In this document: piece after piece, positions 32,248 to 38,486 of the stretch
Layout of the letters: each line of letters begins with the position of its first letter
How positions within the stretch are numbered: the stretch's first letter is position 1
Assembly (NCBI GenBank): GCA_000375685.1
Contig: AQVQ01000003.1
Coordinates: forward strand, 1 to 38,486
Source of the DNA: a crenarchaeote SCGC AAA261-N23
Lineage (GTDB): Archaea > Thermoproteota > Thermoprotei > Gearchaeales > Gearchaeaceae
Length of the DNA: 38,486 nucleotides
Direction of reading: 5' to 3'
Notes under the pieces: model-generated
What the model saw: the letters and a program-made list of their open reading frames with translations, nothing else
What the model was told of the DNA's origin: nothing
Database searches by the model: none
Translations under genes and position numbers: made by a program

Positions 32248-33548
32248 AGTTAATAGTCCAACATCTTGAGACTGTTTTCTTATGGAATTTGGTAAAGAGG
32301 AATATGATCTAAAATATTTTTATGAAAATAATTTCATAAGGAAGCAATGTAAAAGCTGTAAAAGGTTTTTCTGGACTCTTAATAAGGATTTTGAATATTG
32401 TCAAAGCGCTCCATGTGTAACTTATAATTTCTTAGGAAATAAAATAATGGAAGCTGACACGAATTTCGTTAGAAAAGAATTCATAAACTTTTTTAAGGGT
32501 AAAGGTCATACAGAAATAAGTCCAAGACCTGTTTTAGCTAGATGGAGAGAAGATATATTTTTGACAATAGCTAGCATAGCTGTTTTTCAACCATTCGTTA
32601 CTAAAGGAATAACAAATCCACCCGCCAATCCTCTGGTAATTTCACAACCTTGTATAAGACTTAAGGATATAGATCTTGTAGGAAAAACTGCAGGTAGACA
32701 CCTTACTATATTTGAAATGATGGCTCATCATGCATTCAATACCAAAGAAAAGATAATTTATTGGAAAGATGAAACTGTTGAATATTGTCAAGAATTCTCA
32801 GCATCGCGTATGAAGATTGACCCATACTCTATATGTTATATTGAGGATTCTTGGATGGGAGGTGGAGATGCTGGACCTTGTTTTGAAGTAGCTACTAATG
32901 GTTTAGAAATAGCTACCCTTGTATTCATGAAATATGAGATTGATGGAAATAAATTAAAGGATTTACCTCTATTCATTGTAGATACTGGATACGGGCTTGA
33001 AAGATACGTTTGGTATTTATCAGGGAAACCTTCAGCGTTCCATGCAATATATGGAGATTTAGCTGAAAAAGTTCTAAATAAAGCAAGAATTTCCTCGGAT
33101 TTAAAAGATTTACTTTTTATTCATTCTTCTAAATCTCTGTTTTATTTAGAAAATAAGGATCCTACCCATGAAATAAGTAGAGAAGTCGGAATAAATGAAA
33201 TTGAAACTAAAGAATTAATCAAAAGAATAGAGGGATCGTATGCTATACTAGATCATTCAAAGTGTGTACTTTTTATGCTTGCAGATGGTTTAGTCCCTTC
33301 TAACATGGGCGAAGGTTACTTAGGGAGACTGGTCATTAGGAAATTGCTTAAGACTTTAAAATCATTAAATATAGATTTAACCCTCGAAGAATTATTTAAA
33401 GAGCAAATAAAATTATGGGGCAGGATTTTTCCTCGTCTTGTTGAAAACAAAGAAAGAATCTTTGAGGTAATTGAATTAGAAAGTGAAAAATATGAACAAC
33501 TCTTAAGGAAAGCCGACATAATGCTCGAAAATATGATTAAGGAAAAGA

Positions 33549-33643
33549 TCAATAAAAAAGAAAAGTTTAATATTGATGAGTTAATAGAATTATATGATTC
33601 ACATGGAATTAGCCCTGAATTTGTAGAAGAAAAAGCCGCTAAA
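33549..33643 (+). repeat. Left arm of exact 95-bp inverted repeat (alaS internal)
   Basis: Base-by-base match to the reverse complement of 38392-38486; diverges at 33644 (A versus T). Confidence 0.97.
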
Positions 33644-33883
33644 AGACACATTAATTCTATAAAATTACTTATTTTCATATCTCCATTTAAAGCTTTAAGA
33701 ATTATTAGAAATTATATTAGTAATAATTTTCCTTTGTCTATTTTTATATTTCTTTTTATTACAGTTTTAGAAAGTATTTCGACGATTACTGGTTATATAA
33801 AATTTATATTAGGTGAAGATTTTTTAAAATGGAGAATTGCTTACACAACAAAAGAAATTCATAAGTATATACCAAGTGATTAA
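33644..33883 (+). pseudogene. C-terminal fragment of a membrane protein (possibly glycosyltransferase family 2 tail), lacking its own start
   Basis: 'RHINSIKLLIFISPFKALRIIRNYISNNFPLSIFIFLFITVLESISTITGYIKFILGEDFLKWRIAYTTKEIHKYIPSD*' has no AlaRS counterpart and contains a TM segment. Confidence 0.6.
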
Positions 33884-33909
33884 AGCTCTTATAAATAGAA
33901 TTAAGTAAT

Positions 33910-33983
33910 CGCCCTGGCCGGGATTTGAACCCGGGTCGCAAGGGTGACAGCCTCACATTCTAACCGGGCTAAACTACCAGGGC
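33910..33983 (-). tRNA. tRNA-Asp(GTC)
   Basis: Acceptor GCCCTGG/CCAGGGC, G73, anticodon loop CTGTCAC. Confidence 0.9.
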
Positions 33984-34031
33984 TTTACATCATTAATTAG
34001 TAATATATTTCCGTTAAAAATTTTTACTTAT

Positions 34032-34106
34032 CGCCCCGGACGGGAATTGAACCCGTGACCTCTGGCTTAGAAGGCCAGCGCTATGTCCATGCTAAGCTAC
34101 CGGGGC
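34032..34106 (-). tRNA. tRNA-Arg(TCT)
   Basis: Acceptor GCCCCGG/CCGGGGC, anticodon stem CTGGC/GCCAG with loop CTTCTAA. Confidence 0.92.
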
Positions 34107-34151
34107 TTATTCATACAGCCAAATCTTTCTACTAAATAATAAATTTTTAAT

Positions 34152-37025
34152 TTATTCTATATACAGTCCTATTTTAAAAGGTAGGGATCTTTTTGCCTTA
34201 TTCAGTGGATCGTAAATTACTTTCTCATCTTCTTTATATACTTTTACTTTTATTCCTTCTTTGCTATAGTATCTTTCCAACTCTTCAATAACCGCTTTAT
34301 CTATTTCTTCAGCATGATCAATGGTTTTCCTTAAAAGCTGATCCAAAGTATAGTAGTATTCAGCTAGTGTAGAAATTATCTGTTTCTGATTTTCTATTTT
34401 AAATTTTGAATTTATGATGCCCAAGACTTCTTTTTGTCCCTTGCCTTTCTTAGCTAGAAAATTAATTTCTTTTAAAATTTCGTATTTGACTTCCGAGGGT
34501 TCGTAAATTATTATGCTTTTAATCTGTTCTTTTTTAGCCATTATATTTTGTATATCGCTAAGGATTTTTACAAATAGCAACTCTCTTGCTTCTTCTTTTT
34601 CATTTATCAGATTTTCATTAGCTGAAGGCCAATTTGCCAAGGAAACAAATCCGGTTTTTCCCAATCTTTCCCATAGTTCTTCGCACGTATGCGGAATTAT
34701 GGGAGTAAGTAGTTTAATCCATGTTTCTAGTACCATCCTTATCACTGAAATGTTGGGTTTTTCTACCCTTTTCAAATACCATTTTACATCAGACCATATC
34801 TCGTATAACGCTATGTTGGTTGCACTTCTAATTTTCAGTTCTTCAAAAAATTCGGTAACTTGTTTTATTCTCTTTTGTAGAACACTTAAGATCCATTTAT
34901 CCAAGGATGTATTTTCGTTAGTTCCTTCAATAGTAATTAGCTTAGAAATAAAATTAAAAAGCGAGTTAAGAGTATTTTTAGTTTGATTCAAACCCTTGGA
35001 AGTCCATTCTACATCGTCCAAACCTTCCGCAGCCAAAGCCAGAAATAATCTTATTGTATCTGCGCCGTATGTATCCACGGCTTCCTGAATAGAAATTATA
35101 TTTCCTTTAGATTTTGAAAGTTTCTCTCCTTCCAAATTCATAAGGCCGTTAATACCTATTGCTACTGGCCATTTGTCTTCTGGAAATATTGCTACATGAT
35201 GGTAAATGAAAAAAGTCAAATGATTATAAATTAATTCTTTTGCTGAGTTTCGTAAATCTACTGGATACCAATACTCAAATTCTTCTTTAATTTCATTAAG
35301 AAGATGTTCATCTATACCACATCTTTGACTCACTTGTGCTGGATCACCTTTTCCTAAAAAGATATAATCAAAAAATTCGTGCAGCATATTCTTTTCGGTT
35401 ATAAGGCCTTGGTTTACATATTTCGCTATGATATAATAAGCCATGTAAATTGTAGAATCACTAAGAGGTTCGATTATCCAGCTTTTATCCCATGGCAAAT
35501 TAGTACCTAAACCAGATTTTCTTGTGCAAGCTTTATCTTCAAGCCATTCAACAGTATCTATAAACATTTTCCTTGCTTCATTGGGGTAGAATTTCATCCG
35601 ATCAATAGCTTTTCTGACCAAAGATTTCCAATTTTCATCTGAGTACTTTAAAAACCATTGATCTTTAAAAATCGCTACTATACATCTTGTACCGCATCTG
35701 CAAATAACTGGAGAAGGTGTATCATAAAGCTTATCTAGCATTGACTTGCTTGCTAATTCTTCAATGATTTTTTTTCTAGCTTCACTCACATTCATTCCTG
35801 AATAGTTTAAGCAATTTTCCTTGAGTTTGCCTTTTTTAAATTCTTCTGAATATACCAATTTCGTAGCTTCCTCAAGTTTTGGATCATTTTGGTTTTTTAT
35901 CTTCATCTTTTTTACCACTTCTATTGCAGAATAATCACCGAATTCGTCTGTGTGTATAATTGAAATAGGTTTGATTTTTATAATATCTTCTTTATTCAAA
36001 TTAAATCTCCTTAGCATCTCTTCATTATTTAGTAGATCAATCAATCCAACATAGTCATACGGAGCATGAGCCGGAACACTATATACTATTCCTGTTCCAA
36101 GTTTAGGATCGATAAAAGTAGCAGGGAGTATAGGTATTTCCTTATTAAACACAGGTTCATAGGCTTTCTTACCTATGAAGTATTCAGCACTTTTAATTTC
36201 TATGATTTCTGGTTCGAAATCTTGTTCCTTTAACTTTGTAATTGTGGGTTTTGATACAAACCAGATTTCTCCTTTTACTTTAACTTTTGAATATTCTTCA
36301 TCCGGTTTAATCCAAATGTTAGTTACACCGAAAATAGTTTCAGGTCTTAAAGTTGCTGCAACTAAAAATCCATCTTCGAATTTAAATTTAATTAAGTAAA
36401 ATATATCAGGCGAAACACCTTCCCCTTCTAATCTATCATGATCTCCTGTTGGAGATTTGTCATTCGGACACCATATCACAGGATGAGTACCTTTCGTAAC
36501 GTAACCCTTATCTCTTAAAACCTTATATTGCCAGCCTACAAATGCACTGTATTCCTTATTAAGTGACGTGGTATAAAATTCTCTTCTCCAATCAACTAAA
36601 TATCCTAATCTCATTATTGCAGGTTTAGCCCTTTCTGTATAGTATTTAGCTATGTAAATTGGATCTACAAAATTCTTTATATCATCGTCTGAAATCTTAT
36701 CTATTCTTTTCAATAGATTAATCAATTTCTCGTCGCCTTTCGCTATTCTTTTTGCCGTTCCAGCTATAGGTTCACCTGTCCAATGCCAAGCCATTGGAAA
36801 AAGTACATTGAATCCCTGCATTCTTTTATATCTACCATAAAATTCTCCTCTTGAAGAGGTAAATGCAAATCCTATATGTAAATGGCCATTCATATATGGA
36901 TACGGAATAGTTATAAAGATTTTTTTCTTATTTTTTATGGGATCAGCTTCATTAATTTTAGCTTTATACCATCTTTCTTGCCACTTCTTTTCTATCTCAA
37001 AAAAATTAATTTCTTGTTCGGACAT
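34152..37025 (-). CDS. leuS: Leucyl-tRNA synthetase
   Basis: 'PYPYMNGHLHIGFAF' (HIGH), 'MAWHWTGEPIAGTAKRI', 'KLSKSKGNIIS' (KMSKS), archaeal-type C-terminus. Confidence 0.96.
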   Translation of the reverse strand: MSEQEINFFEIEKKWQERWYKAKINEADPIKNKKKIFITIPYPYMNGHLHIGFAFTSSRGEFYGRYKRMQGFNVLFPMAWHWTGEPIAGTAKRIAKGDEKLINLLKRIDKISDDDIKNFVDPIYIAKYYTERAKPAIMRLGYLVDWRREFYTTSLNKEYSAFVGWQYKVLRDKGYVTKGTHPVIWCPNDKSPTGDHDRLEGEGVSPDIFYLIKFKFEDGFLVAATLRPETIFGVTNIWIKPDEEYSKVKVKGEIWFVSKPTITKLKEQDFEPEIIEIKSAEYFIGKKAYEPVFNKEIPILPATFIDPKLGTGIVYSVPAHAPYDYVGLIDLLNNEEMLRRFNLNKEDIIKIKPISIIHTDEFGDYSAIEVVKKMKIKNQNDPKLEEATKLVYSEEFKKGKLKENCLNYSGMNVSEARKKIIEELASKSMLDKLYDTPSPVICRCGTRCIVAIFKDQWFLKYSDENWKSLVRKAIDRMKFYPNEARKMFIDTVEWLEDKACTRKSGLGTNLPWDKSWIIEPLSDSTIYMAYYIIAKYVNQGLITEKNMLHEFFDYIFLGKGDPAQVSQRCGIDEHLLNEIKEEFEYWYPVDLRNSAKELIYNHLTFFIYHHVAIFPEDKWPVAIGINGLMNLEGEKLSKSKGNIISIQEAVDTYGADTIRLFLALAAEGLDDVEWTSKGLNQTKNTLNSLFNFISKLITIEGTNENTSLDKWILSVLQKRIKQVTEFFEELKIRSATNIALYEIWSDVKWYLKRVEKPNISVIRMVLETWIKLLTPIIPHTCEELWERLGKTGFVSLANWPSANENLINEKEEARELLFVKILSDIQNIMAKKEQIKSIIIYEPSEVKYEILKEINFLAKKGKGQKEVLGIINSKFKIENQKQIISTLAEYYYTLDQLLRKTIDHAEEIDKAVIEELERYYSKEGIKVKVYKEDEKVIYDPLNKAKRSLPFKIGLYIE

Positions 37026-37026
37026 T

Positions 37027-38486
37027 TCAAGTTAATTTGCTATTCAAATAGTTTATAGTTTCTTTAATCACTTTATCTGATTCAAATTTACTACTCAGAT
37101 ATACTCTAGAAAATTTATTATCACCGCCTCCCTTTCCTTCAGTAACGTTAATAATATTTTTCGCAATCTCATTTGCTCTAATACCTTTATTTATAGCATC
37201 ATCTCCTGCAAATATCATAACAAACGTTTGATCTTTCTTTTGTGAATAAACTAATAATACAGAATCTTTACTTTCTTTACGGAATATTTCCCCTAGACTT
37301 ATAATATCCTCTTCACTTAAGTTTTGCGAATCAATAAAATAAAATTTGACTTCCTTAGAATATACAGGGTTATCTTTAATATTTTCATAAATCTCGGTAG
37401 CTAAACTCTTTCTTAACCTTTCCATCTCTTTTTTAAGCAATTTATTTTCTGTGACCACTTTATTTATTCCCTCAAGTATTTTATTTAGAGGAGCATTTAG
37501 GGTTGTAGATATACTTTTCAACAAATCCTCACTATTTTCAATATATTCTAATGTTTTTATTCCTGCTGTATAAACTATTCTTTCTATACCGTCTTGTATG
37601 CGCTCAGCTTTGATTATCTTAATCAATCCTACCTCACCTGTACTTTTAACATGAGTGCCACCACAGGCTTGATGATCATAATCTCCAATACTAACAACTC
37701 TAATTATTCCTCCTTCATATACACCTCCTTGATACAATCCGAAACCATATTTTTCTTCTGCCTCCCTTCTATCCATGAACTTAGCAGTAACAGGTATGTT
37801 CATAAGAACTAGTCTATTAGCCTCTTTTTCTATTAATTTCAATTCCTCGTCGCTTATTCTTCTATAATGTGTAATATCTAGTCTTCCTTTTTCTTCGTCT
37901 TTATGTGATCCAGCTTGCCATACATGATTTCCTAAAATTTTTCTTAGAGAATAAAGTATTATATGTGTAGCTGTATGATGCCTCATTATATTAATTCTTC
38001 GTTCAAAATTAACTTCACCTACAATTTCCTTCCCTTCAACATCTTCTAAATTGCCTTTAACTTTATGCAGTATTACATTACCTGACTTATAAACTTCTAC
38101 AACTTCTAGAACTTTATTTTTGTAATATATTTTCCCAGTATCATAAATTTGACCGCCTCCTTCTGGATAAAATGCGGTTTTATCCAAGATTATCCAAGAT
38201 GGTTCAATCGCTTTTATAACTTTTGCCTCAAATGTGCTGAGATACGGATTTTCGTAATATATAGGGTAAGTTGCTGGTATATTTGGAACATTTGGTATTT
38301 CGGCTTTTTGAGAAACCTTGGGCATCGTAGCCTCATGTTTCTCAACAATTCTTGTTAGAAAATCTTGTGGAACAGTTATACTGATATTATATTTAGCGGC
38401 TTTTTCTTCTACAAATTCAGGGCTAATTCCATGTGAATCATATAATTCTATTAACTCATCAATATTAAACTTTTCTTTTTTATTGA
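37027..38486 (-). CDS. alaS: Alanyl-tRNA synthetase C-terminal half (editing and C-Ala regions), open at window end
   Basis: Frame is open from 38484 (…NKKEKFNIDELIELYDSHGISPEFVEEKAAKYNISITVPQDFLTRIVEKHEATMPKVSQ…); 'MRHHTATHIILYSLRKILGNHVWQAGS', 'DHQACGGTHVKSTGEVGLIKI', 'GKGGGDN'. Confidence 0.92.
   Translation of the reverse strand, partial: NKKEKFNIDELIELYDSHGISPEFVEEKAAKYNISITVPQDFLTRIVEKHEATMPKVSQKAEIPNVPNIPATYPIYYENPYLSTFEAKVIKAIEPSWIILDKTAFYPEGGGQIYDTGKIYYKNKVLEVVEVYKSGNVILHKVKGNLEDVEGKEIVGEVNFERRINIMRHHTATHIILYSLRKILGNHVWQAGSHKDEEKGRLDITHYRRISDEELKLIEKEANRLVLMNIPVTAKFMDRREAEEKYGFGLYQGGVYEGGIIRVVSIGDYDHQACGGTHVKSTGEVGLIKIIKAERIQDGIERIVYTAGIKTLEYIENSEDLLKSISTTLNAPLNKILEGINKVVTENKLLKKEMERLRKSLATEIYENIKDNPVYSKEVKFYFIDSQNLSEEDIISLGEIFRKESKDSVLLVYSQKKDQTFVMIFAGDDAINKGIRANEIAKNIINVTEGKGGGDNKFSRVYLSSKFESDKVIKETINYLNSKLT
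38392..38486 (-). repeat. Right arm of exact 95-bp inverted repeat, ending exactly at the window end
   Basis: Reverse complement identical to 33549-33643. Confidence 0.97.

Follow-up and report, generated by a model that had tools for sequence, protein, structure and literature searches.

The last 4.8 kb of the contig analysed here are a fold-back artefact, which most likely arose when the whole genome was amplified and the product was then assembled with 95-letter words. The window, 38,486 nucleotides in all, is a complete contig (C3) of a 1.20 Mb assembly (G000; 176 contigs, 67% complete), and near its end the alanyl-tRNA synthetase gene (alaS) is printed in two pieces on opposite strands, with an exact inverted repeat at the break. 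We are highly confident that this arrangement stems from an inverted amplification chimera that a de Bruijn assembler with K = 95 traversed in the wrong direction. The genome contains no such 95-bp repeat element, the inversion has no biological basis, and biological novelty is absent from this contig end.

A divided alaS gene and its order in relatives

The original prediction described an exact 95-bp inverted repeat at 33549–33643 and 38392–38486, and these coordinates are correct: the two arms match exactly over 95 nt, are 100% complementary, and enclose 4748 nt. A 95-nt exact match within the contig is not chance, and the same length recurs throughout the assembly. Because the window is the whole of C3, the outer arm is the end of the contig rather than one arm of a repeat flanked on both sides. 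From alaS onward, the features are read as follows:

32282–33643, plus strand: N-terminal half of alaS, 454 codons (Pfam tRNA-synt_2c), in genuine order with rpl12 upstream and collinear in the same-genus locus L004
33549–33643, plus strand: inner 95-bp arm, the shared 95-mer and genuine alaS sequence (repeat search)
33643–33644, no strand: putative chimeric junction, at which the open frame ceases to match AlaRS and from whose next base the two copies differ (AGACAC versus TATAAT)
33644–33883, plus strand: 3′ end of a gene unrelated to alaS, which the junction places in frame with it (distantly similar to the C-terminal end of a G001 protein)
33910–33983, minus strand: tRNA-Asp(gtc) (ARAGORN)
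34032–34106, minus strand: tRNA-Arg(tct) (ARAGORN)
34152–37025, minus strand: leuS, 957 aa, in reversed orientation (Pfam matches to class I synthetase and Anticodon_1)
37027–38391, minus strand: C-terminal alaS half with the editing part, likewise reversed (frames, Pfam, joining)
38392–38486, minus strand: outer 95-bp arm, a second printing of the shared 95-mer, stopping exactly at the contig end

The proposed division of alaS into an N-terminal part on the plus strand and a C-terminal part on the minus strand is seen directly in the frame translations. The plus-strand frame opens at 32282, runs through ...SPEFVEEKAAK up to 33643, and then enters about 80 unrelated codons before a stop at 33883; the same peptide occurs on the minus strand in the frame at 38484–37027, where it runs on into the remainder of AlaRS to its C-terminus. 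The Pfam model tRNA-synt_2c is divided accordingly, with model positions 2–406 in the plus-strand part and positions 378–549, together with tRNA_SAD, in the minus-strand part. The suggestion that the pieces join into one intact AlaRS also holds: 32282–33643 followed by the reverse complement of 38391–37027 gives 2727 nt free of internal stops, encoding 908 aa that are 64% identical to the AlaRS of a same-genus relative in a gap-free alignment of 884 residues. The alaS stop (37029–37027) and the leuS ATG (37025–37023) lie 1 bp apart, as had been noted.

Comparison of gene order in related genomes, a check proposed with the original prediction, gave a consistent answer at three distances. In a Thermoprotei archaeon MAG of the same genus (L004, G001:C38), ribosomal proteins, rpl12, the N-terminal and C-terminal parts of alaS, and leuS follow one another in one unbroken direction. 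A genome of the same family (G002) encodes an intact alaS (906 aa), leuS, tRNA-Arg, and tRNA-Asp, all in one direction, and the rpl12, alaS, leuS order of a more distant relative (L005) agrees with that of L004. The collinear rpl12-alaS-leuS order therefore indicates that the segment of C3 is inverted with respect to its relatives, in which alaS is intact. An alaS search of 60 relatives placed the best match within an open frame of about 900 aa in most of them. Within the assembly itself no second intact alaS was found; the only further match, at C17:13287–13982, was an AlaX-like homologue that stands alone and corresponds to the editing part of AlaRS (35% identity), and similar matches occur in most relatives. 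The description of alaS as broken is thus accurate for the contig but, on this evidence, not for the organism.

The stub at 33644–33883 is similar to the C-terminal end of a protein from G001 (37% identity, E 1.8e-9) that matches Pfam glycosyltransferase family 2 (GT2) models; the stub itself (77 aa) has no Pfam match. Placed in the native order, the stub would form the 3′ end of a gene convergent with leuS and the tRNAs. Neither a native continuation past 33644 nor the rest of the stub gene was found in the other contigs of the assembly. The tRNA-Asp gene has the direction of leuS here and in G002, and the opposite direction in same-genus L004 (15757–15830, minus strand).

Exact 95-bp repeats at contig ends

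If the repeat were a genomic element, its arm length would be an accident of this locus, whereas a graph vertex printed twice should leave the same length at contig ends elsewhere. All maximal exact repeats of at least 31 bp were therefore surveyed in 94 contigs of the same assembly (822 kb), a sample that takes in a minority of the contigs numbered C89 and higher and, for C4–C14 and C16, their first 10 kb. Repeats of exactly 95 bp number 29, all of which touch a contig terminus, and every other length from 80 to 110 bp is represented by zero to two repeats in these contigs. Inverted repeats with one arm at a contig terminus and the other inside the same contig account for 24 of the 29; they correspond to 23 termini in 19 contigs, C3 included, since two pairs in C50 share one terminus, and contigs 15, 19, 23, and 30 fold back at both ends. 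The other five comprise end overlaps between C59 and C64 and between C34 and C72, an inverted contig-to-contig overlap between C57 and C13, and direct repeats in C58 (start to end) and C27 (start to interior). The interiors of 22 fold-back pairs span 956–9132 bp, all under 10 kb. A 95-bp length that recurs at contig ends in this way is what a single 95-mer graph vertex leaves behind when it is printed on both sides of an inverted chimera.

Terminal fold-backs of at least 31 bp are found in 25 of the 94 contigs, compared with none of 66 loci from other genomes, of which roughly 50 include a true contig end by hand count. Fold-backs of 36, 44, 71, 78, 87, 151, 268, and 651 bp were also seen. These lengths count against the preferred explanation, which has to assume for such cases that the switch involved more or less overlap, or that processing followed.

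Exact repeats longer than 95 bp with one arm at a contig end occur in C50 (2257–4930/5007–7680), C53 (1–651/2739–3389), C29 (7463–7730/15644–15911), and C31 (1–151/1421–1571), and are probably related artefacts. C18 (L116) is a palindrome over nearly the whole contig, with exactly matching inverted arms of at least 8661 bp (773–9433/11340–20000); it is probably another fold-back product, assembled at full length.

The open frames that cross the arms were also compared between orientations. The longer frame belongs to the assembled orientation in C27, C30-end, C23-end, and C19-end, and to the flipped orientation in C3, C14, C23-start, C12, and C30-start. Such a mixture is predicted by the arbitrary reading of a loop whose ends meet one vertex. 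As a one-sided proof of wrong orientation the test was set aside, since results that fit arbitrary loop reading prove little for any single contig.

For users of this assembly, this means that many contigs may have an inverted outer part of 1–9 kb. Fusions of genes at fold-back points are false (here alaS with the glycosyltransferase-like stub), and claims of gene order or split genes near contig ends are unreliable. An easy automatic filter for such artefacts is offered by inverted repeats at contig termini that share one exact length.

Origin of the junction and competing explanations

The organism's order would be rpl12-alaS-leuS-tRNA-Arg-tRNA-Asp, followed by the 3′ end of the convergent gene. 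The chimera would have formed while the whole genome was being amplified, probably by MDA from one or few cells: a displaced 3′ end would have been extended on the opposite strand several kb away, and this strand switch would have joined 33643 to 33644. The 95-mer ending at 33643 would then have two continuations in the graph, the genuine TATAATATC... leading into the C-terminal part of alaS and the chimeric AGACACATT..., so that both ends of the 4748-bp segment would attach to one vertex and form a loop readable either way. The assembler would have followed the loop in the reverse direction and placed the vertex a second time at the contig end. That MDA was the source and that SPAdes was used for assembly is our inference; an MDA-amplified single-cell or low-input genome is suggested by the combination of K = 95, a fragmented assembly that is 67% complete, and inverted joins that are both abundant and short-range. 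An inverted chimera or misassembly stood first, unranked, among the options of the original prediction, and it is this option that the collinear relatives and the 95-bp length at 22 other terminal fold-backs favour.

A pure assembler or scaffolding error, in which no chimeric molecule existed, is very unlikely. The arm length equals the apparent K, which indicates that the assembler shapes how the contig is printed, but without read words spanning 33643/33644 a de Bruijn assembler would not make the join, and no repeat in the genome accounts for it. The preference for inverted joins over distances below 10 kb matches that of MDA chimeras.

Less probable still, and given almost no weight here, is a real inversion of the chromosome, fixed or reversible, that took place between two genuine inverted repeats of 95 bp, one of them inside alaS. 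C3 as printed does present an inverted segment flanked by exact inverted repeats. However, such an inversion would abolish the one alaS that was found in the assembly, the relatives are collinear, the 95-bp length is also found at unrelated contig ends, and no sequence lies past the outer arm. A genuine alaS-splitting inversion carried by some cells of the population, alongside the intact arrangement, is just as improbable. Equally far-fetched is a partial duplication that placed a second, inverted piece of alaS beside an intact copy, which would account for the 95 bp of alaS present twice in C3 but leaves the other 95-bp fold-backs unexplained and finds no further alaS copy in the assembly except the AlaX-like editing homologue in C17. 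Real inversion and partial duplication were both rejected on the collinear relatives and the assembly-wide 95-bp pattern, and neither is needed.

Comparison with known systems

The amplification chimera that we favour has close parallels in the literature. Lasken and Stockwell (2007; PMC1855051) report that inverted joins make up more than 85% of MDA chimeras, and 337 of 406 inverted chimeras tabulated in that study join segments less than 10 kb apart. The fold-backs described here are alike in that the segments of C3 are joined inverted with respect to the native order of relatives, in that the joined segments lie under 10 kb apart (4748 bp in C3; 956–9132 bp in the 22 pairs), and in that many independent events are seen (24 same-contig 95-bp terminal fold-backs in 19 contigs). 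Unlike those chimeras, the join in C3 is known through the assembly and not from single reads.

A published JGI single-cell protocol uses SPAdes with the --sc option and a final K of 95 (PMC7490370). The k-mer overlaps left by de Bruijn assembly likewise have one exact, fixed length at contig ends, here 29 repeats of 95 bp. In this assembly, unlike in ordinary overlaps, they are mostly inverted and within one contig, because the graph branch comes from a fold-back. Contig ends also appear to be untrimmed here and short contigs to have been kept, unlike in the published protocol.

Invertible DNA segments are similar to C3 as printed, with its segment between exact inverted repeats. Nevertheless, inversion in C3 would disrupt an essential gene, the arms have the assembler's word length and recur assembly-wide, and where an invertible segment would have sequence beyond both arms, the outer arm of C3 is the end of the contig.
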